DNA of 64,000 nucleotides, taken from positions 17,684,001 through 17,748,000 of the forward strand of contig OX387201.1 in the NCBI GenBank assembly GCA_947561715.1. The letters are read 5' to 3'. The DNA is from Ascidia mentula. Its lineage: Eukaryota > Chordata > Ascidiacea > Phlebobranchia > Ascidiidae. The translations under genes and the position numbers were made by a program. This document shows, piece by piece, positions 5,401 to 46,071 of the stretch. Each line of letters begins with the position of its first letter. The first letter of the stretch is position 1. Below the pieces are notes generated by a model. It saw nothing but the letters and a program-made list of their open reading frames with translations. It had not been told where the DNA came from and did no database searches.

Positions 5401-6129
5401 CGGCACCTCGATCACGCATAGGAAAAACTTTGGAAGGAGAAGTGCAGGAAGCAGACAAACGCAATCAAGCGTGAGACTTTTTTCACACAGGAGAAAGCAA
5501 TATGTATTAATTTAAAGGAAAGCATTTAAGGAAAAGACAGACTTGTTTCTATGTAAGATAATTTTTATAAATCTTTTTTACAAATCGCACTCATAGATGT
5601 CACATGAAAAATAACTATTAATGAAAATGATTTATTCTTACGTACGGGGAAACCCTGAACGGTGTTCGTAGATTCAGATTTTAACTTGATTGAAGTTATG
5701 GGAAGCAAAAATTAAAAATGGATATAAGGACATGCTTCGTAAGTATTTTTGAAACTTTTTCGTGTGTTTTGACGTGTATAATATATTTGTGATTTTTGGA
5801 AAAAAAATTTGTGACATAGGATAAAATGCACGACCCAAGCTTTTTTCCTGTCAAAAAGCAATTTGTTTTTCTGAAATCATGTGTTAGACACCCAAGGCCT
5901 ACTAGACATGAATTACAATTTCTCCTATCCCGTACACTTTTACCAGATGGAAAGAAAGTCTTAAAATGTTTACTGATTATCTGCACAAAAAAGACCCAAT
6001 GCATTAACATACGATAAGTGTTTGTTATTCTGCAATTCATCCTCACAATCAAAAGTCATACAAAAAATATCCAATCTGTTTTCACCAGTTTACATTTTTT
6101 TGATAAAGTTAACCTGTGTTTATTTGTAG
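2458..6129. promoter_or_regulatory. Divergent intergenic region between NLR1 and GB1-pseudokinase A
   Basis: No convincing coding exon is visible apart from the unidentified first exon(s) of the gene that starts on the right. The segment 2,760-3,120 resembles 34,100-34,450 upstream of NLR2, with several indels, so sequence upstream of the NLRs has been kept through an older duplication. The segment 4,010-6,100 resembles 35,830-38,170. Similarity there is visibly lower than in the downstream gene bodies. Promoters for both neighbours must lie here, but I cannot place a core promoter. Confidence 0.5.
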
Positions 6130-9100
6130 TGCGACAGTTGGTCCATTATCAGGATAATCCAAACAGACATTTGTGGACTCATCATTATGCTCAGGCAGCA
6201 TTTGATCGTGCCGGTGATGCATTTGTTAATGTGGGATTTTTTGGAACAGATGAAATGTCAAAGAAAGTTTTCTTTCTTGTGTATTTGGAGTACATGAAAC
6301 AGACAAGAGATTTAACAGTAAGTCAAATATTCCGTTCAAACACTTTGAATAAGCTAAAGTAGGGTACTGTCAAACATATTAGTTTTCAACAATGCAGGTT
6401 GGTGTCTAGTGATGTTGTTGAACATCAAATATCCATGTGAAAACATCCATTAATAATGTAAAACAGTGGCCCTGTCTAAAGTTCACTTATGGTTGACTCC
6501 ATTGCTGAAACGCCAAAGTTCATGAGGGCTTTATTGATTTTTGTGTTTAACAGGCACCAACCAATGCAATCTTCCAGCGATACAAGCTGCACTGTTATGC
6601 AAAAAACTTTCCCATCAGACAACTTGATAGAATAACTGGTCTCTGTTTGCAGGAAACCCCATTTGTTGTCCAATAGAGGATGATCAGCTTGTAAGTAGAA
6701 GTAGTAAAATTTGAATTTGCATTAAGCATTAAGAAGTACTAGTTTTTTTACTTTGTTTATTTTTGTTGCATTGATTTGCAAAAATAACTGATGTATTTAC
6801 AAGAGATGCTTATTTTCAGAGATTTTTTTTTGTCATCACTTCCATTTTTTTGAATGTTTAAAAAAAATATTTTGAATCAAGAGATCTTGGTGTCAAAAAA
6901 AATGTGCAATCAAATCTTCATATCTTTATAATTTCGTATTTCCATTACAATTCATATTGCTGATTTTGTGGTTAGATAATATGTAAATTGTGTCCACAAT
7001 GTCCACATTTACATTTTTAATTTTCCAGTAAATATTTTATGCCTTGAAGACAGTTATATTGATTTTGTGTCATTCTAAACTTCTTACTCACAACTAGTAA
7101 ATCTACCAAAGTGTTTATGTGCACGATAACAAGTTTAAACATAAAGAATATAAATAAGCACCATCTATTTTATTTTTCAACCAGCTTCGTTGTTTTTCTA
7201 TGCTGACTCTGGAGTTGAATCAAAAAACATTTAGTTCAAACAAATGTATTTTGCAATGTGCTGGTGCCATGGCTTCCACTTTTGTTATCAATGTGCTAGA
7301 GGAGATTACAGAATCGGATTTGTCCCACTTGAAGGTTTGGAGAAGTTTGTATGTTCAAAACATTCCACAGAATAAAAATTACAATTGGATTAATCTATTA
7401 GTATATGACTTAATATTTATCCTTTAGTATTGAACCCATAATCTACCCTTAATATTTTACAAAACTTTGAAAAATCGACGCCTATGATATCATTTATATA
7501 TCAAATTTATAATTTATCAAAACCACTTGTGCATATTTTTTTGTATCTGTTCTGTTTATTCTCAGGTGTTTGTGGATTATGCAAAGAAAATTCAATGGTA
7601 TGGATTCACTTCTATATTGCAGGTATAATAAAAATATGTCAAACACATGTTATAATATGTGATATATACGATACATTCAATGATATTGGAAACAAAATTA
7701 TTTGTAATTCACAAGTTTTCTGGTTGCATTGTAATAAATTAATTATAAATGTTTCTTTTTGCAAGGAATTGGTTTTTGTCATCCATGAATATGGACAAAA
7801 TAATGACTATCTCAGAACAGTTTTGACAAAATATTCCACCTCAGAATATTCCTTTGATCTACTTTCTGTAGCATTTAATAGCTGTATGTGCTACACTCTG
7901 CCTTCAGTCAAGGATGTTATGCACTCAAAAGGTTGGTTCTGTGGCGTATATTTCTTTGTTTGAAAAAAGCCATAATATTGGAAAGCTGCAGACAGGGTGT
8001 GTACATGCACTGTTTTGACCCGTAAGGTAAGATCCGTTTGGCCATGGTGCTTTTTTTCACATATATTGCATTGGTGTTTTTGCCTTTATCACTATCGGTT
8101 ACCAAGCAGATCTGTTTGGCCATAGTACGCTCCACAGTGGTTCTTCGTCTCTGTTGTTCGGTACTCAGTATAGGGTACCAAACAGATCGACGTTCACCGA
8201 AAGGTACCACAAAGTGGAAATTAGTGTGCCCGCTAGTGTAAAAGCTAGCACAGTGCCACTGTCAACAGCTGCACTGATGAGACCTCGAAACAGTAATGTA
8301 CACACCCTGTCTGCAGCTTTCCAATATTTCTATGTTCTGATACAAAATTTTTTTATCATGCACGTATTTGCATTGTACACGTCCTGTTCAAAAAGTTGTT
8401 CCACTATTTGTGCATTAACTTGCACTGGAATTTAATAAAAAGATTCAAAATATGTAAAACTATAGTTATAAATGGTATCGTTGGCTTACAAATTGCATAT
8501 TTGTAATTTGTGGTTTTGAAGATCTTCCTGTCAACTACATGAAGGTGGTCTGCCAGTTTGGTTACAAACACGTTTGCCCTGAGAACAGAAGAAAAAGCTT
8601 CGCACACTGGACAATGTCAGAAAGAAATGGAAAACAAACTTTTAGACGGATCGAGCGATACATGAAATCCATGAACGACGGAAACTATGATCTGGGAAGG
8701 CTTTATTTGGAGGTTGGTTTTCAATTGTTGTGTGGTAGTATGTGATGCTCTGTATGAATTGTACATTTCTTGACATATAGATTCTTTGGTTTAGTTTTTG
8801 CAATGTTTAATACATTTACTGCATGATTAGTTAATGTTTCTGTCTTAATCACGCAACTTACCTCTTTTCACTTCTGTTTAGAATCCTGTTTTGATTTTTC
8901 CCCATTTCTGACATTATAAAGATTTCACCTCATAACTGATTCTATTCCAACTTTTGGTCACTTAATTACATTTACAACTGGTTTTGACGCAGGACACAGC
9001 CCGACATGAGTATTTTCATGCCATTGAGCTTCAAATTGAAGACTACATCAAAAGCATAACAGAAGTGTGTGTGTAAAGTTATTCTTTTACCTGTATTTAA

Positions 9101-12100
9101 AACATTTCATAATGGTCATTGTAAGATTGACCTCTAAATGTTTGCCTAAAATGTGATAAGAAATGTTAGAAAACTTGTGCAGTATTTTCTCTTTTACTGT
9201 GCATTATTGTATGTGGTCTTACATCATAACTAATGCTGCAGGGTATCAGGACCATGTCAGTTGACACATCATATGAAAACATTACCTCAAATGCTCAGGA
9301 TTTTATATTTAAAAAGTACGAAGATTTTATAAAAATACAAGACTTCAGACACCTTGGTTGGTATCAAAGTGGTATCAGTGCATTGGGAACATACACAAAC
9401 AGTTACAAGATAATGTTTGAGGATGACTTTAAAAGAAAGCTGGTAAGTAGTCGATAAACTTTATTTGATTGTAGTGTAATTTTTACATGCGAAAAGTTTA
9501 GATTGTCACCTAAAATTTTATTTAGGTTGCGCTAAAGCGTGTTACAAACAACTACAAACAGCTACAACGGAATGACGTGAAACTGAGCCATGTAAGCAAT
9601 TACTGCTTGGAATGAGAAAAATGCCTCGTTTATGGATGGTTTTCTTTTACTAACATTTATGTGAAAAGTTTGTTAATGTTTGTTAAGGAATGAAATCTTT
9701 GTTACATCCTGATGGTGCTCAAGATTGTGAAGATGTGCTAATTATTTTTTTAACTTTTTAATTTTGAAAGGTTTTAAAGCAAACGCAAAGCACTCATGAC
9801 ACACTACCAGTTAATGGAAGCAAAACAGTAAGATATAGGGATTGGGAAAAACTTTAAAAATAAATAACTTGTTCAACTCTGTGTTCCCTAAAATTGAATA
9901 AATATTACCATAGATTACGGTAATACAGTCACATCTCTTCAGACTAAATAGCTTTGCCACCCTAAATTTAACCTTCATAAACTGCAGCCTTAGTTCAAAG
10001 CACGAAATAGGCACAAACCTTCATAATTTATGGCTTTATGTTTCAACCCAAAATGTATATGGAAGACTAAAAGGCTGCTGCCTAATGGTTATTAGTGTTT
10101 GATGACATCCTAATAATATTGATGACATCATTAGTCATACGTGTGACACACCCTACTTTAACATGACAAACTGATATTAACAAAGTCATGTATTTTGGAA
10201 AAGAGGTGATTTTTGCTTGACTTGTTCATTGCTCCGTTATACATTTGTTACGTATATTTTCCTACTATCTTTCAAGTTATTGAAACTATGCACCCCCCAC
10301 ATCATATCCTTTTTTATGACACTGCATATTTTGTTCACACTTCTACATAAATATAACAGTTTGGAATAAATTTATTGTTCTTCATACTGGGTCATTATTT
10401 ATTTTCAGTCGGGTGAAATGGATGCAATTTTTTCAAAGGCTTTGGAAATTTATCTGAGTAAAATGAAGGTAAATGCTTTGGTGATTGTTATAATTTCAAG
10501 ATGGTGATTGTTGTATGTTTGTTAACAATTAAATGCTATCTGATGACATTAAAACTTGACGCTTTTTGCAGGAAAACGAATGCACATGCAAAGATGATGT
10601 TTTTCAGCAACATTCTTTGGCGAATGATGAAGCAAAACAACATCTTGAGACAGCTTTAGACCCAAAGTTTTCTCAAGTTGTTTGGGGTGAAAAATGCTAT
10701 TCTTTGTTTTTGTTATATTAATGTATACTGGTTTTAACATGGCAAAAGTCCTCGAACAAAATTAGTAGTTAGAAAAGAGTCGTTCAATTATTGTCAGATC
10801 AACAAATGCTGAATTTCAATTTGACTTTGCAAGAAAAAAGAGATGCAATTATCAGTGAGATTGAAAGTGCAAGAAAACAAGAGGTAATCATGAATGCCTG
10901 GAGTTATTCTGAATTTGATGTGCACCATTAGGCAAAAGTATTGTGTTCTAATACATGGATTGTTTTAGAATGTAATGCACTGCTTACAATCGAATGCTGT
11001 TAGCAGCTACAGGGAAAGCATGATGGTGAGTTTCCTTGTAATGTTGAATCAATCAATTTACTATATTTGTGGAAACTTGTGGCAACTATTTAAACTCTAT
11101 TTTAAGCTGATTTAAGGGAAATACAGAAAAAAAATTATACTTTGTTGGTCAATTTGTTGTGACTATTATAATATTTATTCATTTCAGACATTTGTATTTT
11201 GCTGTTTTCATTGAACCTGTTTTGTTTGTGATTTAGGAAGCTCTATTTGCAATGGAAGAACCATTTGAAGAATGCCATAAGAAATGTTTGAAGTCTGGAA
11301 AAAGAATTCTCTCTTCGTCGCAACTTTGGGCAAATGCAACGTTGAGGAAACAAATGGAAAGTCAGTTTATTGAAAAGGCGGAGGAGGAAAAATCTTTCCT
11401 CGGAAGTTATTTTAAAGTAATTGTTTTGATTTTGTAAATACTTCACAAACACATTGTTAATCCTAATACCACAGTTAGCAATTAGGATAATTGAAATTGC
11501 ATGTGGGTTTGTGCATTAAATTTTCTTGCATAGCAAATATTTTTTTGTGTTTGATAAAAGTTTTATTTTAGAGGAAACACGATGCCACCTACTTTGAAAA
11601 TGAAAAGAAGTTAGCAGCGAAATACCATGAACTTATGGATAACGGGGTAAGAAAACTTGAAACTGTTGTTTGTTTCACTTCCAGTCATCATTTACATATT
11701 CACACCTCAAAGCGAAGATTTGTTTATATCTTAATATTTCTTACTAGATGTAAAACTTAGTTTTTATTGTTTGTTTGTTAATTATTTACTGATGAAATGT
11801 ACAATGATTTCGTAATTGATAAAACAACATAAGTGCATGACACTAAAATGTTGTTAACGAAAATCGTTTGCAAAAACTGTAGATCATTCTGAACAAACAT
11901 AACATCAAGTGATTCAATCACATTTTCATACAAGGACAAGCAGAAGTCAATTTGTAATAAACATTTCAAATGCACATTGTTTTAGATTTTGGAATTGGAG
12001 AACATCCAAAACTTTAAAGCCTTACATGGCCGTGCAGTGAGTCAAGCTTATCAACATCTGAAGTTAAGCAAGAAGTTATCGAAAGAAAACGGTGAAATGT

Positions 12101-14070
12101 TGAGAGAGAGTTTGACCCCGTTCAAAGAAAAATACCTTGAGATGTTTGAACTTAATCAGGTAATTACAGCAAAATGGTTTAGGTTTTTTATTACACTGTT
12201 TCAACTCATAAGGTCTCATCAGTGCTGCCATGGCAAGATTGTCCACACCACGTTGCACTGATAAGACTTGATAGGTTGAAACAATGGCCATCTGTATGCA
12301 GCTCACAAAATTCATATTATTGATCCCCATGCTCATTTATTTTATATGCACAAAAGCCATAATATTCAATGAGAGCTGCAGACAGGTGTACACACTGTTT
12401 CGACCTGTAAGATCTCATCAGTGCATCTGGTGACTGTGGCACAAGGCTACATTTGTTTGGCCATATTGCGCCCAACGTGGTTTGTCTACGTTGATTGGTA
12501 ACTAGTTTGGTACCCAACATATTGACAATTGACTAAAAGGTACCACAAAGTGGAAATCTGTGTGCCTGCAAGTCTACCAGCTAGCCCTGAGCCCGGCGGG
12601 CCACACGGACTAACCTTGTGGACCATAGTTTAGTGACCCCTGGCGTAGAGTTACTTGCCCTTAGTTAACCTTTTCCTTTAGTTATCATGGATCTGCAACA
12701 TTAACTAGAGGATGTTGTGTCAATATCTGGGTTTTGATGCAGATCTGCATCTTGTGTCTCTCTTGATTCCAGTGTGAACACACCAGCTATGATAAATTAT
12801 CATTGAACATTTTACTTGATCTGTTACTCTATTTGTAGGAACTTAAAGCAGCAGAAGCCAGGTTAAAGGTATTGGAGGACCAAAAGCTTGCTTCTAAGAA
12901 GGTAGAAAAATGTTTACTGTGAAAAAGAATTTTGCGGTCGGTTTTACTTTGTGTATTCAGTGCTTATTTTAACACACTTAGTTGATGTATTGGAATACCA
13001 ACAATTTTGTAATGTGTTGCGAGATCTATGATTGGAAAACAAACATGTGATGCAACTTTATGTTGAAAGAAATGCTTTTGTCAATGCAGTAATTCTGCAC
13101 ACAACTGACAACCATTAAGTTAGATTATGATCAGTTTAACGAATCCATTACTTTAGGCTGTGGATTGTTTTGTTCCTCCGAGCGAACTGACGTTTTCCAT
13201 GGACAAAATTATTGACAACGGAAACTTCAGGCTTGTTAAGAAGGCGTGGAATGACATGCATGGAAATGTAACAGTGCAGTACATTAACATAGAGGACGGA
13301 ATATCGACCGAACAGCAGATGGAAACGTAAGTTTGTAAATATATTGACACGGTTTGGGATTTTAGTCTCAGTAATTGAGCTGGTACGTTTGTTGCAGGTT
13401 GACGGAGGGCGTCTCACTATCCCGGTTGGCTAATCACGATCACGTGATCCGCGTACTCGGTCACACTCGCCAGGGAAACGAGTTCGGAGTTTTGTTCGAG
13501 TACGTGGACGGTATGGACATCCTCCCCTTCCTCCAATACACCAGAAAGAAGGATTTCTGGCTCCCTCCCCTGGCCAACCTCCGACTCTGTGCCGATATCG
13601 CATCTGCCATTCACTTCCTCCACTCCGATCCAATCTTTAGAGTCGGTGACATCACGATTGATGACGTAATGATCACGTGTAGCCTTCGTGCCAAAGTGAC
13701 GGGGTTTAAGATTGGTAAATTTATGGAAGGCAACGAAAGTCGTGGGAATGGTGCCGCGTCCCTTGCAAAGATAATCGCATCTATAATCCTCCGGGAGAAG
13801 TGGAGTGGTGATGAGGATTGGGATCGGATTGCGGAGGAGAGCATGGCGTGCGCAGAGACCCAGGAAGAGCGGAAATTATGTTGGGCACTGGAGGATGAAA
13901 TCCGACTCTGTCAAGGGGAAAGTCCCTCGGTCGCTGAAACACGAAAACGTCTCCTCATGCGCTTGGAATCCTCTGATGACGGAGGTTTTACTTCTTCGGA
14001 TGAGCGCACAACTAAGCTCTTAGAATACCTCCTGGATGCCATGAGAGAGCTCGACTTTTTAAACAATTGA
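6130..14070 (+). CDS. GB1/RHD3-like pseudo-GTPase fused to pseudokinase, copy A
   Basis: Twenty coding exons joined in phase: 6130-6317, 6554-6690, 7185-7334, 7566-7622, 7766-7931, 8522-8712, 8993-9064, 9242-9442, 9526-9591, 9771-9827, 10409-10468, 10572-10676, 10773-10883, 10969-11025, 11237-11416, 11572-11646, 11986-12159, 12839-12901, 13157-13326, 13398-14070. The first begins with two bases of a split codon, so a start exon upstream is missing. The N-terminal part follows atlastin/GBP order, but the P-loop reads GFFGTDEMSKK and the G3 DxxG is absent. A helical, probably coiled-coil region follows. The C-terminal kinase fold has VTVQ for VAIK, GDITIDD at the catalytic loop and GFKIG for DFG, so it should be catalytically dead. 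Exon 6554-6690 is 1 nt shorter than in copy B and reaches TAG at 6674. A weak GT donor after CCATTT could bypass this. The 3' end lacks 14 nt and stops early relative to copy B. Function unknown. Confidence 0.72.
7975..8330. mobile_element. Retrozyme-like foldback relic in intron of GB1-pseudokinase A
   Basis: This intron segment has inverted ends (AGCTGCAGACAGGGTGT on the left, its complement on the right) and belongs to the same family as the element at 32,720-33,344. The right end, 8267-8318, keeps hammerhead parts: stem I AGCTGCA/TGCAGCT, the core CTGATGA, GAAA and the CTGTC cleavage arm. Stem II is reduced to GACCTC, so self-cleavage is unlikely. The left end is a partial inverted copy lacking the CTGATGA core. 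The matching insertion in unit 2 is at 39,720-40,090, so it predates the 32-kb duplication. Confidence 0.7.
12190..12590. mobile_element. Degenerate retrozyme-like copies in intron of GB1-pseudokinase A
   Basis: Two neighbouring decayed copies of the hammerhead-bearing family are visible. The first (about 12,195-12,310) has mutated hammerhead-like ends in both orientations (TCTCATCAG on the left, CACTGATAAG on the right). The second (about 12,370-12,590) starts with a better-preserved minus-strand hammerhead and keeps the body sequence GGTACCACAAAGTGGAAA, but lacks the right end. The equivalent intron of copy B carries the same pair at 43,860-44,306. Confidence 0.65.
12374..12427 (-). ncRNA. 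Type I hammerhead ribozyme, minus strand
   Basis: Read on the minus strand: stem I 5' side ending ATGCA, core CTGATGA, stem II GATCT-TAC-AGGTC (one mismatch), GAAA, stem III ACAG...CTGT with a GTGTAC-rich loop, cleavage base C of GTC, then TGCAGCT. All invariant core positions are present. Stem I pairs over only about five bases, so activity may be weak. Confidence 0.6.
12594..12650. mobile_element. hAT-like terminal relic
   Basis: On the minus strand this reads CAGGGGTCACTAAACTATGG followed by a GGCCCGCCGGG stretch. It resembles the end of a non-autonomous hAT element. No partner terminus or duplication is clear. The matching piece in unit 2 is at 44,550-44,607. Confidence 0.4.
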
Positions 14071-14600
14071 TGACAATGATGTCCTTCCTATTCTTTAACC
14101 TGTGTGTTTTTGTGAGCCAAAAAATGTTGACTTTACTCTGGTACCGTTATTGCTCCACAGATATCACATCCGAAACTGTTTGATTTATTTAGTTGAGATG
14201 TGGGTCATATTCGTGTTTTATAATTTCCAGTGGTTGGGTTTGCCTCCATTATATGTGTTTCCAATATAGCCCACATATGACGTATCCCAGTTGTAATCCA
14301 TTACTGCACTTGGACGACTTTTCAGACCTAAACTCTCTATTGTGTGTTCGGGATTAAATGCGTTGACACTTTATTTTTGTTTGTGGAGTTCTGTTGTTTG
14401 CAGTAAAACTATGTGAGTGTGAAGGATTGTTTGTTTTCACAAAAGTTAACCAATCTTGCTGACGGTATTTATGCAAACATGTTATTAATCACCGACACAA
14501 ACCTCAGTCCCATTTATCAAATTTCAAACCGCTGTGTAGATAACGACTTCTCGGGTTGCACTGAAGGCCGCATCTCTGTATTTCTATGGAAAAGACTTTC
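14071..14600. other. 3' flank of GB1-pseudokinase A
   Basis: No further coding exon is recognisable after the stop. The probable 3' untranslated region and flank match 46,072-46,575 closely. I see no clear polyadenylation signal that I would commit to. Confidence 0.35.
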
Positions 14601-24245: not shown

Positions 24246-24352
24246 ACTGGAATGTCGTAAACATTCACGCTCTGAAGTTGTTGTGTAGATTTTAAAACGC
24301 ATAAACTATCTACACAACAACTTCAGAGCGTGAATGTTTACGACATTCCAGT
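24246..24352. repeat. 44-bp perfect inverted repeat at start of Penelope-like element
   Basis: Arms 24,246-24,289 and 24,309-24,352 are exact reverse complements around a 19-nt spacer. The right arm is continuous with the Penelope-like coding sequence. The left arm is therefore an inverted duplicate of its 5' edge, an arrangement known for Penelope-like insertions. Confidence 0.93.
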
Positions 24353-26979: not shown

Positions 26980-28330
26980 ACCTGCACAGGAGGGGGTCAC
27001 GTGACCCTACCACGTTGTACAAGCACTCATGCGAAACACACCTTATCCCCCTTTACTGAAAATGCAAAATCGAAATTTCAAGTCTAGACAAACGGGTGGT
27101 TTTACCAACCGACCGGAACGCGTACGCAGTTCACGTTGTTCTGGAATCGGTCGTATGTGTCGACAGTTACGTCGCAATGACCGATTTGAGGGGGAACGAT
27201 GTAAGAGCGTGGAAGTGAGGTTTAAGAACGTACAATGCCTCCCTCTCCACCGATCCAAGCGTACGTTTCCGGGGAAAGTTCAGGTAGAAGCCGTACCCGA
27301 TGTCGCTTGTCGTAATTTTGCTTGATTTCGAGATCTTTAGCTCTGAAACTCGATAAATAAGACCAGTTATGGACAAGGAACGACGTCGAACACGGAATTG
27401 TCGTCTTCAATCGTCTTCCCATCAACAACTCCGCTGGGCTGTATCCGGAAGCCAGCTTTGTAGCACGGTAAGAAAGTAACGCCAAATAGGAGCTTCGGCT
27501 TTGCTTAGTGGACTTTTGACCCTCTTTACAGCCCGCTTCTCCATTGCTTTGTGGATACAGTAGGCTGCTGGTCTGGTGAATGAAGCCATATTCGTTGGCG
27601 AAAAACTGAAAAATATATAGGAATTGTATTGCGGGCCGTTATCCGACATCACTATGTCTGAAATCCCATGGCGGGAAAAATAGACTTCAAGTGACTGATA
27701 ATGTCCGATGAGCTCGTGCCATGAGCGAGTAGGGACATCTCAATGAACCTCGAGAAGTAATCTACGAACAATAGATATATTTCACCTTGGAAATACAGCA
27801 AATCAGTTCCTACTTTTTCCCATGATCTACTGGGCAGAAGAGAAGGAATCATTCGTTCTGCTAGCATATTTCTATTCCGCTGACACTTAATGCAGCTGGA
27901 AACAAATCGATTAATGTCGTTGGTAATACCTGGCCTCCAGACGGAATCTTGTGCTCTCGGTCTACACTTTTCCATCCCCTGATGTCCAACATGTATACTG
28001 CGCAAAATTTCATTCCACAGAATTCCAGGAATAATAAGTCTGAAGCCTTTGAGAAGCAATCTGTCAACAACAGTTATATCGTGGCGCAGTTGAAAATATG
28101 GTTGCCGCGAATCGATATAGACACGTTTAGGCCAACCGCCTTTAGTAAGTTGAAAAATTTTTATAATACGTCACGCTTCGTTGCGTCACGGACTTGTTGT
28201 ATCCGTGTTTGAGATGCGGGGATGTTAGCAATTACGGCAACAACTTGTTCTTCAATCTCATATTGCAATTTCAATTGCAGAGAGCGACTTTAGAGAAGAT
28301 GATCTAGAGAGTGCATCAGCAGCATGCACA
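26980..28330 (-). mobile_element. Ty3/gypsy LTR-retrotransposon fossil, unit 1
   Basis: A minus-strand pol remnant with the integrase zinc-binding region (HVGHQGMEKC and SSCIKCQRN), integrase core blocks and the region after the core. No flanking long terminal repeats are recognisable. It is broken in several places and truncated at both ends. The same fossil is at 57,650-59,200 in unit 2, so its insertion predates the 32-kb duplication. Confidence 0.82.
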
Positions 28331-29379: not shown

Positions 29380-30597
29380 TCACAAATAAATGTTTTTACA
29401 CAAATATAAATTAAATCCTCACAGGGTTTTCCATATTAGCAAGTTCTTCCTTCACCACCTTAACCACCTAACAGTTTTACGAGCCTTTCCATTATACGCA
29501 ATTTGGCCAAGGGCTTTTATCACAAAGTTTGGTTCCTTGTCCTTGGTATGTTCTGACACATCAAGTTGTTGCAAAGCATTAAATATGTTGGTAATTGTGC
29601 CACAATTGTTTTTGTCACCAAACAAACTGGCATACAAAACAAATTGCAAAAGTAATGGATTGCGACAAAAATTTAGCACTTCTGCAGATTCAGTTTCAAG
29701 TTTTTTCCACAGTTCACTTGCTTTTTCACCGCCATAAAAATCAAATAACTTTTTCATGTTTCCTGCAGAGAAATCATGGACATTAATGATGGATTTCGGA
29801 CGAATTTTCACAGGAATTGTGAGCAGGGAATGGGGGCGGGACGTAAATATCAAAGATGATTTTTTGAAGAAGATTTTTCCGCACAGATTGGCAACAAGCT
29901 GTTGAACTGTCAAACGATTTTCGTAACTTGCACTTATAGCTGTCATATTTTCTAGTAACCATGTTGCCTGATCTAATCCATCAAATAATAAAACACATTT
30001 TTTTGGATTTTTTTTCATCCATTTAAATGCAGCATCTCGTACAGTTTGTTCAACACCAGGAAACTGTCTATCAAGTAGAAGCTCTTGCAGTGTTAGTTTT
30101 TCATCTCCAAAGTTTAAATACATGAAGCTTAGATGCACCACCAAATACTACTTTTTCATGCGTTTAAACAGTTTCTTGGACATGGTGCTTTTCCCTGACC
30201 CCGCTGCTCCAATAATTGCAAGAAATTGATCACCTTTTTCAATTGTGGAAATCAATTCCTCAAATGTTAGGGGATCGCCCTCAAATTGATCTGCTTTGTT
30301 CTTTCCTGTTAGTGGTAAATGCGACCTAACATTTTTGGCATAGATGCCTCTGTAGAAGTTAATGACCTCTAGGGAAGGATTGACATCAGGAACTCCCTCT
30401 TCACATAAACCAGGTAGAGGAACCACAGCCTTAAGATCATTCTGTTGATTTTTGATGATTTCTATGGCTTTGAGCTGCCTTTTCTCTGTAGGCAAAATAG
30501 ACCAGTGAACGCACATTCTATATAGCAAGATCTTATTGCAAGATGCATTTCAACTGGCTAAGTTTTGGGAGAACAAAAACATTTTATTTGTTTTAGA

Positions 30598-36022: not shown

Positions 36023-36418
36023 TTCACACATTGGGCACTGGTAGCTTGTAAGTCCCAAATAGGTGTGCGTCGTTCACACATTGGACACTGGTAGCTTACG
36101 AGCCCCAAATAGGTTTGCGTCGTTCAAACATTGGCACTTGTAGCTTGTAAACCCCAAATAGGTTTGCGTCGTTCAAACATTGGCACTGATAGCTTGTAAA
36201 CCCCAAATAGGTTTGCGTCGTTCAAACATTGGCACTGATAGCTTGTAAACCCCAAATAGGTTTGCGTCGTTCAAACATTGGCACTGATAGCTTGTAAACC
36301 CCAAATAGGTTTACGTCGTTCAAACATTGGCACTGGTAGCTTGTAAACCCCAAATAGGTTTACGTCGTTCAAACATTGGCACTGGTAGCTTGTAAACCCC
36401 AAATAGGTTTACGTCGTA
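36023..36418. repeat. 49-50-bp minisatellite, eight units
   Basis: Eight head-to-tail units with landmarks ACATTGGCACTGATAGC and CCCCAAATAGGTTTGCGTC. Unit starts counted at the TTGG landmark are 36,031, 36,081, 36,131, 36,180, 36,229, 36,278, 36,327 and 36,376. The first three steps are 50, 50 and 49 bp, the rest 49. Unit 1 has a single copy at about 4,190-4,245. Confidence 0.92.
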
Positions 36419-38193
36419 ACACCAGCATGTCACAATAACTTGTGTTCCGTAATATTAGCATTTAATTTCTTTCAATATTATACGTAACAAAACAGGTCAT
36501 CATTTCTAGTCTGTAGCATGATTAAACGACTTACACTATATTTTTCAAACAAAGTCAAAAAAGGCAAAACATGACTACGTTACGCTAACGTTAAAAGAAA
36601 ACAAGATCATAAATTCATTGTTGAGTGCCTCGCCTCATATGCAATCTGTATGTGTTCCTTCTACCGAAAAGGTTGGACGAGCTTGCTTTAACTGCGCGCC
36701 ACGCTATTCTTTTCGTTGCGTTAATAGCATCACACAAAAGAAAAACTTTTCGTTTGATGTGATCAGCGCAGAGTAAAGTTTTAGGCGCCTTGTAACTTTC
36801 ACACTTTCTATAATTAAACGAAAAGAATGAGATTGCTCTTATACCCCATATAAACGGATTTGCTCTGTTATTGGGGCAGTCTAATCCTTTTGTTGTGTCG
36901 ATTCATGCTTTGTAAATACAAGAATTCAACATCGTGTTATAGTTTACGTCAGCGATAACAATATTGTCATCAGTATTAAACCGCATTTTGAATCTAACTT
37001 GCATTACGTTCACAGTAATTTGACAACAAAACTTAGAAGTGCATGTTTGATCAGTTTTTCCATTAGCGACAACATCGGAGTTTCATGTAATTTCATCAGC
37101 ATTAATCTCACACATCAGCAACCTAATTTGACAAACGATTTTATTTCTGCTTCTGGACAACCAAAGCATAAAGTGACTGCTTAACCTTACGATAAACATT
37201 TTCAGCTATGTTTTCCAAGAATATTTGCCATAAACTTATAGCTAACCATAGCATAAGAACCAATAAACAAGTTGCTTCACAGCTACCTTGAAATATTGCC
37301 CAAATTCAGTTCCTCATTTTACTGAATCAGTGGCTACGAGATGAAAGGTCAAATTTGTTCAGAGAGTGACCTGATGTGCAACGACTTACAATAACCTTCT
37401 CTCGTCGCTTGCGTCGCAACAAGTATATTGCCAGCACAACAACGCACGGCACCTCGATCACGCACAGGAAAAACAGCGTAAGGAGAAGTGCTGGAAGCAG
37501 ACAAACGCAGTCAAGCGTGTGTATTTTTTTCTCACAACAAAGGAGATACCAATTTATGTAGTAATTAAAAGGAAAGCATAAAAGGAAAAGACAGACTTGT
37601 TTCTATGTAAGATAACTTTAATACAATTTTTTTTACAAATCGCACTAACAGATGTCACATAAAAAATAACTATTTGTGAAATAATTTATTCTTACATACG
37701 GGGAATCACCGAACGGTGGGTTCGTGGATTCAAATTTTTCTTTGATTGAAGTTATGGGAAGCAAAAATTAAAAATGGGATCTAAGGACATGCTTTGTAAG
37801 TATTTTTGAAACTTTTTCGTGTGTTTTGACGTGTGTTATATTTTTGTGCTTTTTTTGGAAAAAAAATTGGCGACATTGAATAAAATGCACGACCCAGGTT
37901 TTTTTCTGGTATAAATTATAAAATCAATCTGTTTTTCTGAAATCAGGCGTTAGACACCAAGGCCTACTAGCCATGAATTACAAATTCTCCTATCCCATAA
38001 ACCTTTAACAGATTGAAGGAAAGTTTGAAAATATTTACTGATGCTCTGCACAAAAAATACCCTATGCATTAACATACGATAAGTGTTTGCTATTCTGCAC
38101 TTCATCCTCACGATTAAAAGTGCAAAAAACATCTAATCTGTTTTCACCAGCTTACATTTTTTTTGGATAAAATATACATGTGCTTATTTGTAG

Positions 38194-41100
38194 TGCGACA
38201 GTTGGTCCATCATCAGGATAATCCAAACAGACATTTGTGGACTCCTCATTATGCTCAGGCAGCATTCGATCATGCTGGTGATGCATTTGTTAATGTGGGA
38301 TTTTTTGGAACAGATGAAATGTCAAAGAAAGTTTTCTTTCTTGTGTATTTGGAGTACATGAAACAGACAAGAGATTTAACAGTAAGTCAAAAAGGTAAAG
38401 CAGGGTACTGTGTGAGTGACAAATGACACAAAAAAACCAAGGTGACTAGTGATGTTGTTGAACATCAAATATCCATGTGAAAAAAGTTCATGAGGGCTTT
38501 ATTGTTTTTTGTGTTTAACAGGAACCAAACAATGCAATCTTCCAGCGATACAAGCAGCACTGTTATGCAAAAAACTTTCCCATCAGACAACTTGATAGAA
38601 TAACTGGTCTCTGTTTGCAGGAAACCCCATTTTGTCGTCCAATAGAGGATGATCAGCTTGTAAGTAGAAGTGGAAAACTAAAATAACTAAAATAAATAAG
38701 TACAAGCGAAGGTCTGTTCATTGCTTTTGTGTCCAAAATGTCCATATGTATGTTTTTAATTTTCCAGTAAATATTTTATGCCTTGAAGTCAGTTATATTG
38801 ATTTTGTATTATTCTGAACTTCTTACTCACAGCTAGTAAATATACCTAAGTGTTTATGTGCACGATAACAAGTTTAAACATAAAGAATATAAATAAGAAC
38901 CATCTATTTTATTTTTCAACCAGCTTCGTTGTTTTTCAATGCTGACTCTGGAGTTGAATCAAAGAACATTTAGTTTAAACAAATGTATTTTGCAATGTGC
39001 TGGTGCCATGGCTTCCACTATTGTTATCAATGTGCTAGAGGAGATTACAGAATCGGATTTGTCCCACTTGAAGGTTTGGATAAGTTTGTATGTTTGAAAC
39101 ATTTCACAGAATTAAAATTACCATTGGATTAATATATTGGTATATGACTTAATATTTATCGTTTAGTATTGAACCCATAATTTACCCTTAATATTTTACA
39201 AAACTTTGAAAAATCGACGCCTATGATATCATCTATATATCAAATCTATAATATATCATAACCACTTGTGCATATTTTTTGTATCTGTTCTGTTTATTCT
39301 CAGGTGTTTGTGGATTATGCAAAGAAAATTCAATGGTATGGATTCACTTCTATATTGCAGGTATAATTAACTTGAACATTTCAAACACATGGTATATTAT
39401 GTGATATATACGATACATTCAATGGTATTGGAAACAAAATTAATTGTATTTCACAAGTTTTCTGGTAGCGTTGTAATAAATTACTTATAAATGTTTCTTT
39501 TTGCAAGGAATTGGTTTTTGTCATCCATGAATACAAAGGCCCCAAATATGGACAAAATAATGATTATCTCAAAACAGTTTTGACAAAATATTCCACCTCA
39601 GAATATTGCTTTGATCTACTTTCTGTAGCATTTGATAGCTGTATGTGCTACACTCTGCCTTCAGTCAAAGATGTTACACACTCAAAAGGTTGGTTCTGTG
39701 GCGTATATTTCTTTGTTAAAAAAAGCCATAATATTGGAAAGCTACAGACAGGGTGTGTACACGCACTGTTTCGACATGTAAGGTAAGATCCGTTTGGCCA
39801 TGGTGTTTTTTTTCACATATATTGCATTGGTGTTTTTGCCTTTAGCACTATCAGTTACAAAGCAGATCTGTTTGGCCATAGTGCGCTCCACAGTGGTTTG
39901 TCGTCTCTGTTGTTCGGTACTCAGTATAGGGTACCAAACAGATCGACGTTAACCAAAAGGTACCACAAAGTGGAAATTAGTGTGCCCGCTAGTGTAAAAG
40001 CTAGCACAGTGCCACTGTCATCAGCTACACTGATGAAACCTTACAGGTCGAAACAGTTCGTGTACGCACCCTGTCTGCAGCTTTCCAATATTTCTATGTT
40101 CTGATCCAAAATAAAATTTTCATCATGCATGTATTTGCATTGTACACGTCCTGTTCCAAAAGTTGTTCCACTATTTGTGCATTAACTTGCACTGGAATTA
40201 AATAAAAAGATTCAAAATATGTAAAACTATGGTCATAAATGGTGTCGTTTGCTTACAAATTGCATATTTTTAATTTATGGTTTTGAAGATCTTCCTGCTT
40301 CGCACACTGGACAATGTCAGAAAGAAATGGAAAACAAACTTTTAGACGGATCGAGCGATACATGAAATCCATGAACGACGGAAACTATGATCTGGGAAGG
40401 CTTTATTTGGAGGTTGGTTTTCACTTGTTGTGTGGTAGTATGTGATGCTCTGTATCAATTGTACATTTCTTGACATATAGATTCTTTAGTTTAGGTTTTG
40501 CAATGTTTAATACATTTACTGCATGATTAGTTAATGTTTCTGTCTTAATCACGCAACTTACCTCTTTTCACTTCTGTTTGGATCCTGTTTTGATTTTTCC
40601 CCATTTCGGACATTATAAAGATTCCACCTTATAACTGATCCTATTCCAACTTTTGGTCACTTAATTACATTTACAACTGGTTTTGACGCAGGACACAGCC
40701 CGACATGAGTATTTTCATGCCATTGAGCTTCAAATTGAAGACTACATCAAAAGCATAACAGAAGTGTGTGTAGAAGTTATTCTTTTACCTGTATTTAAGA
40801 CATTTCATAATGGTCATTGTAAGATTGGCCTCAAAATGTTTGTCTAAAATGTGAAAAGAAATATTGGAAAACTTGTGCAGTATTTTCTCTTTTACTGTGC
40901 ATTATTGTATGTGGTCTTACATCATAACTAATGCTGCAGGGTATCAGGACCATGTCAGTTGACACATCATATGAAAACATTACCTCAAATGCTCAGGATT
41001 TTATCTTTAAAAAGTACGAAGATTTTATAAAAATACAAGACTTCAGACACCTTGGTTGGTATCAAAGTGGTATCAGTGCATTGGGAACATACACAAATAG

Positions 41101-44100
41101 TTACAAGATATTGTTTGAGGATGACTTTAAAAGAAAGCTGGTAAGTAGTCGATAAACTTTATTTGATTGTAGTGTAATTTTTACATCCGAAAAGTTTAGA
41201 TTGTCACCTAATATTTTATTTAGGTTGCGCTAAAGCGTGTTACAAACAACTACAAACAGCTACAACGGAATGACGTGAAACTGAGCCATGTAAGCAATTA
41301 CTGCTTGGAATGAGAAAAGTCTCTCGTTTATGGATGGTTTTCTTTTACTAACATTTATGTGAAAAGTTTGTTAATATTTGTTGAGGAATGAAATCTTTGT
41401 TACATCATGATGGTGCTCAAGATTGTGAAGATGTGCTAATTGTTTTTTTTACTTTTTTATTTTGAAAGGTTTTAAAGCAAACGCAAAGCACTCATGACAC
41501 ACTACCAGTTGATGGAAGCAAAACAGTAAGTTATAGGGATTGGGAAAAACTTTAAATATAAATAACTTGTTCAACTCTGTGTTCCCTAAAATTGATTACA
41601 TATTACCATAGATTACGGTAATACAGTGACAACTCTTCAGACTAGATAGCTTTGCCACCCTAAATTTAACCTTCAGAAAATGCAGCCTTAGTTCAAAGCA
41701 TAAAATAGGCACAAACCTTCATAATTTATGGCTTTATGTTTCAACCCAAAATGTATATGGAAGACTAAAAGGCTGCTGCCTAATGGTTATTAGTGTTTGA
41801 TGACATCCTAATAATATTGATGACATCATTAGTCATACGTGTGACACACCCTAGTTTAACATGATAAACTGATATTAACAAAGTCATGTATTTTGGAAAA
41901 GAGGTGATTTTTGCTTGACTTGTTCATTGCTCCGTTGTACATTTTTTACGTATGTTTTCCTACTATCTTTCAAGTTATTGAAACTATGCACCTCATCCAC
42001 ATCATATCCTTTTTTATGAAACTGCATATTTTATTCTGACTTCTACATAAAAATCATAGTTTGGAATGAATTTATTGTTCTTCATACTGCGTCATTGTTT
42101 GTTTTCAGTCCGGTGAAATGGATGCAATTTTTTCAAAGGCTTTGGAAATTTATCTGAGTAAAATGAAGGTAAATGCTTTGGTGATTTTTATAATTTCAAG
42201 ATGGTGATTGTTGTATGTTTGTTAACAATTAAATGCTATCTGATGGCATTAAAACTTGACGCTTTTTGCAGGAAAACGAATGCACATGTAAAGATGATGT
42301 TTTTCAGCAACATTCTTTGGCGAATGATGAAGCAAAACAACATCTTGAGACAGCTTTGGATCCAAAGTTTTCTCAAGTTGTTTGGGGTTTGTTATATTAA
42401 TGGATTTTTGTTATATTAATGGATACTGGTTTTAACATGGAAAAGTCCTCGAACAAAATTAGTAGTTAGAAAAGAGTCGTTCAATTATTGTCAGATCAAC
42501 AAATGCTGAATTTCAATTTGACTTTGCAAGAAAAAAGAGATGCAATTATCAGTGAGATTGAAAGTGCAAAAAAACAAGAGGTAATCATGATTGCCTGGAG
42601 TTATTCTGAATTTGATGTGCACCATTAGGCAAAAGTATTGTGTTCTAATACATGGATTGTTTTAGAATGTAATGCACTGCTTACAATCAAATGCTGTTAG
42701 CAGCTACAGGGAAAGCATGGTGGTGAGTTTCCTTGTAATGTTGAATCAATCAATTTACTATATTTGTTGAAACTTGTGGCAACTATTTAAACTCTATTTT
42801 AAGCTGATTTAAGGGAAATACAGAAAAAAAATTATACTTTGTTGGCCAATTTGTTCCAGACATTTGTATTTTGCTGTTCCATTGAACCTGTTTTGTTTGT
42901 GATTTAGGAAGCTCTATTTGCAATGGAAGAACCATTTGAAGAATGCCATAAGAAATGTTTGAAGTCTGGAAAAAGAATTCTCTCTTCGTCACAACTTTGG
43001 GCAAATGCAACGTTGAGGAAACAAATGGAAAGTCAGTTTATTGAAAAGGCAGAGGAGGAAAAATCTTTCCTCGGAAGTTATTTTAAAGTAATTGTTTTGA
43101 TTTTTTAAATACTTCACAAACACATTGTTAATCCTAATATCACAGTTAGCAATTAGGGTAATTGAAATTGCATGTGGGTTTATGCATTAAATTTTCTTGC
43201 ATAGCAAATATTTTTTTGTGTTGGATAAAAGTTTTATTTTAGAGGAAACACGATGCCACCTACTTTGAAAATGAAAAGAAGTTAGCAGCGAAGTACCATG
43301 AACTTATGGATAACGGGGTAAGAAAACTTGAATCTGTTATTTGTTTCACTTCCAGTCATCATTTACATATTCACAGCTCAAAGCGAAGATTTGTTTATAT
43401 CTTAATATTTATTACTAGGTGTAAAACCTAGTTTTTATTGTTTGTTCGTTAATTATTTACTGATGAAATGTACAATGATTTCGTAATTGATGAAACAACA
43501 TAAGTGCATGACACTGAAATGTTGTCAACGAAAATCGTTTGCAAAAACTGTAGATCATTCTGAACAAACATAACATCAAGTGATTGAATCACATTTTCTT
43601 ACGAAGACAAGTAGAAGTCGATTTGTAATAATATTTCAAATGCACATTGTTTTAGATTTTGGAATTGGAGAACATCCAAAACTTTAAAGCCTTACATGGC
43701 CGTGCAGTGAGTCAAGCTTATCAACATCTGAAGTTAAGCAAGAAGTTATCGAAAGAAAACGGTGAAATGTTGAGAGAGAGTCTGACCCCGTTCAAAGAAA
43801 AATACCTTGAGATGTTTGAACTTAATCAGGTAATTACAGCAAAATGGTTTAGGTTTTTTATTCCACTGTTTCAACCCATAAGGTCTAATCAGTGCTGCCA
43901 TGGCAAGATTGTCCACACCAAGCTGGACTGATAAGACTTTATAGGTTGAAACGATGGCCATCTGTATGCAGCTCACAAAATTCACATAATTGGTCCCCAT
44001 GCTCATTTATTTAAAATGCGCAAAAGAGCCATAATATTCAATGAGAGCTGCAGACAGGTTTACACACAATTTCGACCTGTAGGGTCTCATCAGTACATGG

Positions 44101-46071
44101 CTACAGTTGTTTGGCTGTATAAGTGCGCTTCACATGGTACCTAATTTGGTACTCAACATATCGACGATTGACCAACAGGTACCACAAAGTGGAAATCTGT
44201 GTGCCTGCTAGTCTACCAGCTAGCCCTGTGCCACAGTCACCAGCTGCACTGATGAGACCTTACAGGTCGAAATAGTGTGTACACCTGTCTGCAGCTCTCA
44301 TCATTGCTTGTTTATCTTTTTTTATTCTATGAATTGCAGTTCGTACTGGGATCTGATAGTTGGCAGTATTGTTTGAATAAGTTTAACTTTTGTATAATAA
44401 CATACTTTTGTACACAAGACAATGTACATGTTTGTTCATATTTGCATTAAATATATTCTTCAGCCCATTATTCACGTCAGTATATCACAAAAGAAACAAG
44501 ATTTATCTTATAGTGGGGTAGGATGAACTGATTTGTTATTTGGGGGGCTAGCCCGGCGGGCCACATGGACTAACCTTGTGGACCATAGTTTGGTGAGCCC
44601 TGGTGTAGAGTCACATGCCCTTAGTTAACCTTTTCCATTAGTTATCATGGATCTGCAACATTAACTACAGGATGTCATGTCAATGTCGGGGTTTTGTTGC
44701 AGATCTGCATCTTGTGTCTCTCTTGATTCCAGCGTGAACACACCAGCTATGATAAATTATCATTGAACATTTTACATGATCTGTTACTCTATTTGTAGGA
44801 ACTTAAAGCAGCAGAAGCCAGGTTAAAGGTATTGGAGGACCAAAAGCTTGCTTCTAAGAAGGTAGAAAAATGTTTACTGTGAAAAAGAATTTTGCGGTCG
44901 GTTTTACTTTGTGTATTCAGTGCTTATTTTAACACACTTAGTTGATGTATTGGAATACCAACAATTTTGTAATGTGTTGCGAGATCTATGATTGGAAAAC
45001 AAACATGTGATGCAACTTTATGTTGAAATAAACGCTTTTGTCAATGCAGTAATTCTGCACACAACTGACAACCATTAAGTTAGATTATGATCAGTTTAAC
45101 AAATATTTACTTTAGGCTGTGGATTGTTTTGTTCCTCCGAGCGAACTGACGTTTTCCATGGACAAAATTATTGACAACGGAAACTTCAGGCTTGTTAAGA
45201 AGGCGTGGAATGACATGCATGGAAATGTAACAGTGCAGTACATTAACATAGAGGACGGAATATCGACCGAACAGCAGATGGAAACGTAAGTTTGTAAATA
45301 TATTGACACGGTTTGGGATTTTAGTCTCAGTAATTGAACTGGTACGTTTGTTGCAGGTTGACGGAGGGCGTCTCACTATCCCGGTTGGCTAATCACGATC
45401 ACGTGATCCGCGTACTCGGTCACACTCGCCAGGGAAACGAGTTCGGAGTTTTGTTCGAGTACGTGGACGGTATGGACATCCTCCCCTTCCTCCAATACAC
45501 CAGAAAGAAGGATTTCTGGCTCCCTCCCCTGGCCAACCTCCGACTCTGTGCCGATATCGCATCTGCCATTCACTTCCTCCACTCCGATCCAATCTTTAGA
45601 GTCGGTGACATCACGATTGATGACGTAATGATCACGTGTAGCCTTCGTGCCAAAGTGGCGGGGTTTAAGATTGGTAAATTTATGGAAGGCAACGAAAGTC
45701 GTGGGAATGGTGCCGCGTCCCTTGCAAAGATAATCGCATCTATAATCCTCCGGGAGAAGTGGAGTGGTGATGAGGATTGGGATCGGATTGCGAAGGAGAG
45801 CATGGCGTGCGCAGAGACCCAGGAAGAGCGGAAGTTATGTTGGGCACTGGAGGATGAAATCCGACTCTGTCAAGGGGAAAGTCCCTCGGTCGCTGAAACA
45901 CGAAAACGTCTCCTCATGCGCTTGGAATCCTCTAGTGACGGAGTATTTACTTTTTCGGATGAGCGCACAACTAGGCTCCTAGAATACCTCCTGGATGCCA
46001 TGAGAGAGCTCGACTTTTTAAACAATGATCAGAATAAAATTGATGACAATGATGTCCTTCCTATTCTTTAA
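38194..46071 (+). CDS. GB1/RHD3-like pseudo-GTPase fused to pseudokinase, copy B
   Basis: Exons in phase: 38194-38381, 38522-38659, 38924-39073, 39304-39360, 39508-39688, 40321-40412 (native acceptor 40289), 40692-40763, 40940-41140, 41224-41289, 41469-41525, 42109-42168, 42272-42376, 42470-42580, 42666-42722, 42908-43087, 43243-43317, 43656-43829, 44799-44861, 45116-45285, 45357-46071. This gives about 970 residues plus a missing start exon. The first exons align by eye with the atlastin/GBP G domain: ITGL at G2, ASTIVINVLEEITESDLSHL after G3, LVFVIHEYKGPKYG at G4 (RD replaced by HE). P-loop and DxxG are lost. Helical repeats follow, then a kinase fold with VTVQ, GDITIDD and GFKIG in place of VAIK, HRD and DFG. 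A 67-nt deletion in exon 6 shifts frame if the native acceptor is used; the AG at 40,319-40,320 restores phase with 24 residues lost. Partner and cellular site unknown. Confidence 0.74.
39720..40090. mobile_element. Retrozyme-like foldback relic in intron of GB1-pseudokinase B
   Basis: Counterpart of 7,975-8,330. The left inverted end keeps only the GAAA-stem III half of a hammerhead. The body shares GGTACCACAAAGTGGAAA with the family. The right end has a nearly complete hammerhead, unlike copy A. Confidence 0.72.
40023..40082 (+). ncRNA. Type I hammerhead ribozyme in intron, copy B
   Basis: Stem I AGCTACA/TGCAGCT (one mismatch), CTGATGA, stem II AACCT-TAC-AGGTC (four good pairs), GAAA, stem III ACAG/CTGT, predicted cleavage after 40,075. 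It lies in the sense strand of the host gene, 206 nt before the next annotated exon. Confidence 0.75.
43860..44306. mobile_element. Retrozyme-like copies in intron of GB1-pseudokinase B
   Basis: Counterpart of the 12,190-12,590 pair. The second copy (about 44,040-44,306) keeps both ends: a degenerate minus-strand hammerhead at 44,046-44,097 and a good plus-strand one at 44,242-44,296. Unit 1 has lost the right end. Confidence 0.7.
44242..44296 (+). ncRNA. Type I hammerhead ribozyme in intron, copy B
   Basis: AGCTGCA/TGCAGCT stem I, CTGATGA, stem II GACCT-TAC-AGGTC, GAAA, stem III ATAG/CTGT (one G-U pair) and cleavage after 44,289. All core bases present; sense strand of the host gene. Confidence 0.78.
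44550..44607. mobile_element. hAT-like terminal relic
   Basis: Counterpart of 12,594-12,650: CCCGGCGGGCCACATGG, ending TTTGGTGAGCCCTGG. Only one terminus is recognisable. Confidence 0.4.

Follow-up and report, generated by a model that had tools for sequence, protein, structure and literature searches.

Pseudokinases are well known and pseudo-GTPases far less so, and we describe here a gene of the ascidian Ascidia mentula whose predicted product holds the two together in one protein. Among the systems that come closest, atlastins carry a membrane anchor after their middle region, RIPK and MLKL have to our knowledge no fused GTPase, and the pseudo-GTPase domains of p190RhoGAP are small, Ras-like and set within a RhoGAP, in which we know of no pseudokinase. 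The gene in question (the window gene, or copy B) lies on the forward strand of contig OX387201.1 (GenBank assembly GCA_947561715.1), within positions 17,684,001 to 17,748,000; the window is this whole stretch of 64,000 nucleotides. One source presents p190RhoGAP as a multidomain signalling protein containing GTPase-fold domains without G motifs, which resembles the window protein in having a pseudo-GTPase domain within a larger protein, and it lists MLKL as a pseudokinase with nucleotide binding (PMC5593906). The nearest precedent for the logic proposed below is given by the IRGQ-type quasi-GTPases. They belong to an immune GTPase family, IRG, in which members with a radically altered nucleotide site may regulate active relatives; they differ in being of another GTPase family and, as far as that text goes, in having no kinase fold fused to them (PMC1297648).

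The window protein shares with atlastin the order of strands and motifs in the G domain and a middle helical region, and atlastin is its best sequence match in the PDB. However, it lacks the canonical P-loop, DxxG and RD motifs, and at the place of the atlastin membrane anchor it continues with a long helical region followed by a pseudokinase. An earlier note on this DNA had proposed an atlastin/GBP-type G domain joined to a kinase fold, both without catalytic residues, and at the level of sequence this part of its interpretation stands. We favour, with a probability of about 0.5, the reading that the window gene belongs to a small family of atlastin-pseudokinase fusions, in which it represents a late branch with a dead GTPase, and works as a non-hydrolysing adaptor. 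The homology of both ends, the gene plan, the loss of motifs and the constraint in intact copies are established from the sequence data below. Among the matches listed in our literature search, where most subscription papers were outside coverage, no atlastin or guanylate-binding protein (GBP) fused to a kinase or pseudokinase was found, in agreement with the earlier note, which knew of no described protein with this pairing.

Gene model and predicted protein

We rebuilt the 20-exon chain of the window gene from the DNA. Every intron has an AG acceptor and a GT donor and the exons form a single frame, as the consistent phase claimed for the 20 exons had implied. Two details had to be changed. 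Exon 1, previously taken as the start of the gene, is internal, the acceptor TTTG(C/T)AG preceding TGCGACAG being retained in the other full-type copies, and two borders were moved (to 42376 for the end of exon 12, and to 42470 for the start of exon 13). Upstream of exon 1 we found the exon e0, ATGGGATCTAAGGACATGCTTT followed by GTAAGT, which contains the start codon. The spliced full model, e0 included, encodes 977 amino acids, and its intron phases are, in order, 1,0,0,0,0,1, then 13 times phase 0, and finally 2.

37774..37795, plus strand: e0, first coding exon, MGSKDML plus one base, phase 1
38194..38381, plus strand: exon 1, start of the G domain and P-loop, GTDEMSKK instead of GxxxxGKT (splice sites, frame)
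38522..38659, plus strand: exon 2, switch I region, DRITGLC
38924..39073, plus strand: exon 3, G3 strand, ELNQ instead of DT(Q/E)G, then the atlastin-like ASTIVINVLEEITESDLSHLK; 150 nt
39304..39360, plus strand: exon 4, 57 nt
39508..39688, plus strand: exon 5, G4 strand, IHEY instead of (R/H)DW; 181 nt, phase-1 end
40321-40412, plus strand: exon 6, atlastin-type middle helical region
40692-40763, plus strand: exon 7, atlastin-type middle helical region
40940-41140, plus strand: exon 8, atlastin-type middle helical region
41224-41289, plus strand: exon 9, extended helical region
41469-41525, plus strand: exon 10, extended helical region
42109-42168, plus strand: exon 11, extended helical region
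42272-42376, plus strand: exon 12, extended helical region
42470-42580, plus strand: exon 13, extended helical region
42666-42722, plus strand: exon 14, extended helical region
42908-43087, plus strand: exon 15, extended helical region
43243-43317, plus strand: exon 16, extended helical region
43656-43829, plus strand: exon 17, extended helical region
44799..44861, plus strand: exon 18, helical linker
45116..45285, plus strand: exon 19, kinase N-lobe, VTVQ instead of VAIK
45357..46071, plus strand: exon 20, kinase C-lobe, tail and stop, RVGDITIDDV for HRDxKxxN and AGFK for DFG

The gene has tandem copies (see below). Of the 21 copies having exon 1, 18 show a recognisable e0, and in 12 of the 21 it is letter-clean; its junction with exon 1 is in frame in copies B, L010 and L012. 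An alternative start at the ATG of position 38178 was rejected, since this codon is CTG in copies A, L015, L025, L026 and L027 and ATT in L017, L020 and L024, and since a conserved acceptor lies immediately 3' of it. Five donors of the window gene are weak (GTTTGG, GTTGGT twice, GTGTGT and GTTGTT). The protein ends in DDNDVLPIL, without the CaaX motif in which some GBPs end. It starts with Met-Gly (MGSKDML), and its residue 6 falls outside the usual N-myristoylation pattern, into which the start MGNTGSGQ of the sister gene G2 (see below) does fit. A 49-bp tandem repeat (8 copies, 94% matches) lies 5' of the gene, at window positions 36023-36417.

Homology of the two ends and loss of motifs

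The first 386 residues of an early model of the window gene gave 14 distinct PDB matches with E values of 10 or less. Atlastin-1 accounts for the best 10 of the 14 (E 0.0068 to 0.010), and two more are other atlastins (E 0.54 and 1.1); two matches to ERPC, an unrelated protein (E 0.13 and 0.15), were taken as chance. A Pfam scan of the window G domain alone gave no family above cut-off, the GBP model PF02263 remaining silent, and matches under the cut-off (JAB, Stathmin, Phage-tail_3 and others) were likewise attributed to chance. Because the Pfam GBP model misses the window gene, the G-domain assignment would be a weak claim on its own Pfam and PDB evidence. Its identity is secured by two sister genes, G1 and G2, which share the plan and match GBP/atlastin clearly. 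The GB1/RHD3 homology read in the earlier note is borne out by the atlastin-1 matches and made safe through G1 and G2, and the profile check that it suggested came out positive for the kinase and negative for GBP when the window gene was taken by itself. The kinase end matches PF07714 at E 3.8e-10 (40 bits, cut-off 23.1) and falls just under the cut-off with PF00069 (30.4 bits, cut-off 31.7). In the PDB it matches many kinase families about equally, with Nek7 as the best.

The motifs had been read correctly: GTDEMSKK in the P-loop, ELNQ at DxxG, HEY at RDW, VTVQ at VAIK and AGFK at DFG, to which we add VGD in place of HRD. We surveyed these positions in 22 sequences (20 fetched stretches plus copies A and B), counting for each motif the copies that retain the stretch. 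The canonical P-loop GxxxxGK(S/T) occurs in none of 21 copies, 17 of which keep the P-loop Lys. Switch I reads DRITGLC in 17 of 19 copies and DRISGLC in the other 2, DxxG is missing from all 19 (ELNQ or a variant stands there instead), and the guanine RD motif is HEY in 15 of 15 (FVIHEY in copy A). At the VAIK Lys position we found VTVQ in 18 copies, VIVQ in one and the canonical Lys in 0/19. Neither HRD nor DFG is present in any of 19 copies, the window gene reading RVGD and GFK.

The Gly and Ser/Thr of the P-loop, the Asp and Gly of DxxG and the G4 Asp are thus all replaced, losses that should abolish the contacts to Mg and to the guanine. Of the nucleotide independence claimed in the earlier note, the loss of motifs is correct; a nucleotide-free state does not follow, since the P-loop Lys and the switch-I Thr persist. 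One could accordingly think of a non-hydrolysing pseudo-GTPase of the Rnd kind, in which weak binding of GTP or another nucleotide is retained. GTDEMSKK with its Lys and DRITGLC with its Thr would suit it, and nucleotide-binding, non-hydrolysing pseudo-GTPases are on record (PMC5593906), but the replacements just listed make us regard it as rather unlikely.

Sister genes with an intact-looking GTP site

Searching the genome from which the window comes (195.8 Mb in 79 contigs), we found, on the same contig (C69), two kinases at 32% identity to the window kinase. The DNA 5' of both contains, on the same strand and in the same order, a G domain and helices ahead of the kinase.

about C69:18374500-18387750, minus strand: sister gene G1 (loci L029 and L032)
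about C69:13225600-13236010, minus strand: sister gene G2 (loci L033 and L034)

The P-loop, switch-I, DxxG and (R/H)D motifs of the GTP site read, in that order, GPKGTGKT, ETEGI, DTQG and RDW in G1, and GVQTSGKT, QTSGI, DTEG and HDW in G2, both of which thus keep GxxxxGKT and the switch-I Thr; the P-loop region of window exon 1 aligns with the first motif of each. Both genes exceed the Pfam GBP cut-off of 21.1 bits (39.7 for G1 and 32.1 for G2), and their best PDB matches are atlastins (8.3e-14 and 1.5e-9, respectively). Over 202 residues, the G domains of the window gene and G2 share 31% identity (E 3e-29 in a single comparison); that of G1 is more distant (19% identity in the alignment). A profile of the three genes, which leans on G1 and G2 and uses approximate exon borders for their helical parts, finds atlastin-1 with E 1.5e-22, in a match that spans the G domain and some of the middle region, and GBP1 with only 0.003. 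The three GBP entries in its PDB list score far below atlastin.

The gene structures agree as well, in a comparison that covers the introns from exon 0 to exon 6 and the intron within the kinase. The phases 1,0,0,0,0,1 round exons 0-5 are identical in the window gene and G2, and those of G1 agree from exon 1 onward; we looked for the first exon (e0) of G1 and did not find it. Exon 3 (150 nt) and exon 5 (181 nt) are of equal length in the window gene and G2, and all three genes share the 57 nt of exon 4, the phase-1 end of exon 5 and a phase-2 intron within the kinase, ahead of exon 20. Exons 15-17 of the window gene are recognisable in G1, and exon 15 in G2. Since two diverged relatives have the same domain order, both halves are very likely on one transcript. 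A false chaining of two separate genes, one GTPase-like and one kinase-like, could be suspected from the 969-nt repeat-containing intron between exons 17 and 18 and from the five weak donors. We consider it very improbable, given that G1 and G2, with an identity of about 20-30%, repeat the same-strand order, that the phase-2 kinase intron is common to them and the window gene, and that a single frame runs across 21 exons in three copies.

The two activities appear to have been lost at different times. G1 and G2 both keep VAVK, versus VTVQ in the window gene; none of the three genes has kept HRD or DFG (NVCAP and SVFK in G1, VIGD and GGFK in G2, RVGD and AGFK in the window gene). Most simply, kinase activity would have been lost before the three genes split, and the GTP site later, in the window branch. 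Because the sister genes retain an intact-looking GTP site, the GTPase seems to have become inactive late and the kinase earlier, although the replacing residues differ and independent losses in each gene may have occurred. Atlastins and GBPs carry an Arg in the P-loop; since it is missing from G1 and G2, these may bind GTP yet hydrolyse it poorly.

A conventional GBP/atlastin-like gene of the same genome, L035 (on C52), has the phases 0,0,0,0,1, the 57-nt exon 4 and the phase-1 end of exon 5 of the window gene. It differs in keeping GTLRKGKS, DTQG and RDW (together with ETEGI). A reading of its open frames places a helical part 3' of the G domain, and no kinase was seen within the stretch read. 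Because L035 shares the phases and the 57-nt exon, the N-terminal half of the fusion is most likely derived from the GBP/atlastin-like family (PF02263). This family is expanded in the genome, where C2, C52, C67, C70, C71 and C72 contain at least 164 PF02263 matches, counted exon by exon. At C52:21.15-21.40 Mb, minus-strand kinase exons stand head to head with plus-strand GBP exons, about 3-15 kb apart, five times; judged by coordinates only, this is an arrangement of divergent kinase/GBP gene pairs.

The kinase end has a possible relative too. L036, the best kinase match outside the family on the same contig, keeps HLDIKPEN and DFG. Its closest PDB matches are RIPK2 and RIPK1 (1e-23), and aligned with the G1 kinase over 121 amino acids it shows 36% identity, a possible and indirect link of the pseudokinase to the RIPK family. 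Kinases of C2 and C52 score slightly better with the G1 kinase (E 1.2e-9 to 1.6e-9) than L036 does (2.0e-9). The window kinase differs in showing no family preference in the PDB.

In a protein database, none of 6025 candidates matched the window protein at E 0.01 or better, none of 7188 matched an approximate full-length G1 at E 1, and none of 2447 matched the atlastin part of G1 at E 10. As G1 matches atlastin in the PDB at about 8e-14, the last of these results suggests that the database is without ordinary animal atlastins, and the first two are uninformative on other animals. The parts of the window protein are of known kinds; their pairing, and the series from GTP-site-intact to GTP-site-dead members, appear to be new. 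The sister genes with a GTP site would provide a natural series from a GTP switch to a nucleotide-free binding module, and the atlastin/GBP-kinase fusion would add to the known wirings of immune-type GTPases with kinases.

Copy number, decay and constraint

Exon 1 has at least 31 matching places (rows starting at query residue 1 or 2) and the last, kinase exon at least 22 loci (rows grouped manually), all within C69:16.84-18.98 Mb, an array of 2.1 Mb. We read 20 of the 22 kinase loci, leaving out two shortened matches near 16846025 and 17015723. For B and six further copies the splicing was redone, and an exon is called absent where the fetched stretch had no blastn match. Three of the 22 stretches read (copy B, L010 and L012) have an uninterrupted frame from the start codon to the stop codon. 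A broken second copy, which the earlier note did not mention, lies in the window itself, 32 kb upstream of the window gene.

6114..14098, plus strand: copy A, exons 1-20

Copy A has 1-bp deletions in the start exon and in exon 2, a 14-bp deletion near the end, and an additional, in-frame 15-bp deletion in exon 5. Its frame-breaking deletions rule it out as a working gene. The exon-2 deletion is shared by L015, L025, L026 and L027, which rules out sequencing error as its origin. Window positions of about 1-34035 and 29480-63875 form a tandem segmental duplication, whose period is about 30-32 kb. The two units agree to about 97% from the 3' part of the gene onward and to about 82% upstream of it; this step in identity suggests gene conversion. 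In exon 1 of L017, L020, L024 and L028 the sequence diverges after base 97 and has an in-frame stop. L019 (C69:17004500-17012500) and L021 (16884700-16888500) are shortened copies with exons 1, 15 and 18-20 only; L019 comprises two of them in tandem with a period of 4.3 kb, and a third, known by coordinates only, is at 17013799.

We compared the intact copies B, L010 and L012 in three pairs, which share sequences and are not independent. Over the whole gene, synonymous and non-synonymous changes number 26/18, 30/19 and 37/15 (omega 0.17, 0.16 and 0.10; Fisher p 1.3e-8, 2.9e-10 and 1.5e-15), and in the G part 5/4, 5/3 and 10/2 (omega 0.20, 0.15 and 0.05; p 0.022, 0.012 and 5e-6). From this synonymous excess we conclude that the catalytically dead G domain of the intact copies is maintained by purifying selection. 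The array could also be a graveyard, in which the fusion was once active, the copies are drifting and the window copy is merely unbroken so far. This would explain why 19 of the 22 stretches, copy A among them, have missing exons, frameshifts or stops, and why the exon-2 deletion of A, L015, L025, L026 and L027 marks a broken lineage that has itself multiplied. Against it, all 977 codons are uninterrupted in B, L010 and L012, every splice site of the three is present, and their changes show the synonymous skew given above. This leaves the graveyard reading, in our judgement, a small share of the probability.

Several observations nevertheless weigh against a selected, nucleotide-independent adaptor. 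The 19 broken stretches show a family that is decaying as well as conserved, and pairs with broken copies have higher omega (B versus A, for example, 0.34 over the whole gene and 0.78 in the G part). The P-loop Lys and switch-I Thr, whose presence the earlier note did not mention, leave room for nucleotide binding. In the kinase part the counts are 2/2, 2/4 and 4/2 (omega 0.28, 0.56 and 0.14), and the last pair, the sole one tested, gave p 0.023. The case for constraint on the kinase is therefore weak in its own omega signal and would come mainly from survival in three diverged genes. When the structure of the kinase exon was predicted together with its copy-A partner, the mean predicted local distance difference test score (pLDDT) was 42. 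Finally, the partner and the immune role proposed below, which we think probable, are drawn from genomic context.

Neighbouring genes and proposed role

NACHT-domain (NLR-type) genes are interleaved with the gene copies and spaced as duplicated units.

1-1308, minus strand: NACHT-domain gene, PF05729, E 9.9e-16
29455-30147, minus strand: NACHT-domain gene, PF05729, E 3.4e-10
61631-63040, minus strand: NACHT-domain gene, PF05729, E 9.3e-18

The protein plan, in which an atlastin/GBP-type G domain and its middle helices are followed by an extended helical region and then by a pseudokinase at the C-terminus, would be that of a molecule that functions without nucleotide hydrolysis and binds rather than catalyses. 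The G domain and helices may form a dimerisation or docking face, whose partners would most likely be GTP-binding relatives, either G1 and G2 or ordinary GBP/atlastin-like proteins of the same genome. The pseudokinase may act as a fixed docking module, perhaps towards RIPK-like signalling. We propose that the protein serves an immune-type system, whether as an adaptor, a regulator or a decoy, because the genes form a tandem birth-and-death array with interleaved NACHT genes. A more ambitious and tentative extension, which we consider possible rather than probable, is that these genes form an undescribed animal class in which an atlastin-type GTP switch and a RIPK-like pseudokinase make up a one-chain immune signalling module. 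The window branch, its switch turned into a nucleotide-free partner or decoy, would control the GTP-binding members and would then have been amplified beside NLR-type genes.

The same neighbourhood allows for an integrated decoy, in which the dead GTPase and dead kinase would mimic immune GTPases or RIPK-like kinases attacked by pathogens and be guarded by the adjacent NACHT proteins. The recurrence of NACHT genes alongside the window gene in the duplicated region and the loss of catalysis with the surface kept, together with turnover in copy number, fit such a decoy, but adjacency within a duplicating region may be passive, and we regard it as a long shot compared with the non-hydrolysing adaptor.

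The NACHT copy at 29455-30549 is divided between two open frames. Retroelement remains lie between the NACHT genes and the gene copies. On the plus strand, open frames at window positions 24276-25946 resemble a Penelope-type retroelement (a reverse transcriptase part and a GIY-YIG end), and Pfam gave nothing above cut-off for two of them. A retroelement integrase zinc-binding domain (PF17921, E 1.2e-13) is encoded on the minus strand at 27655-28170, and an exon for an F5/8 type C (discoidin) domain (PF00754, E 2.3e-18) at 22629-23042, also on the minus strand. The sole tRNA found in the window is a tRNA-Thr with anticodon GGT (in DNA letters), at 23450-23525 on the minus strand.

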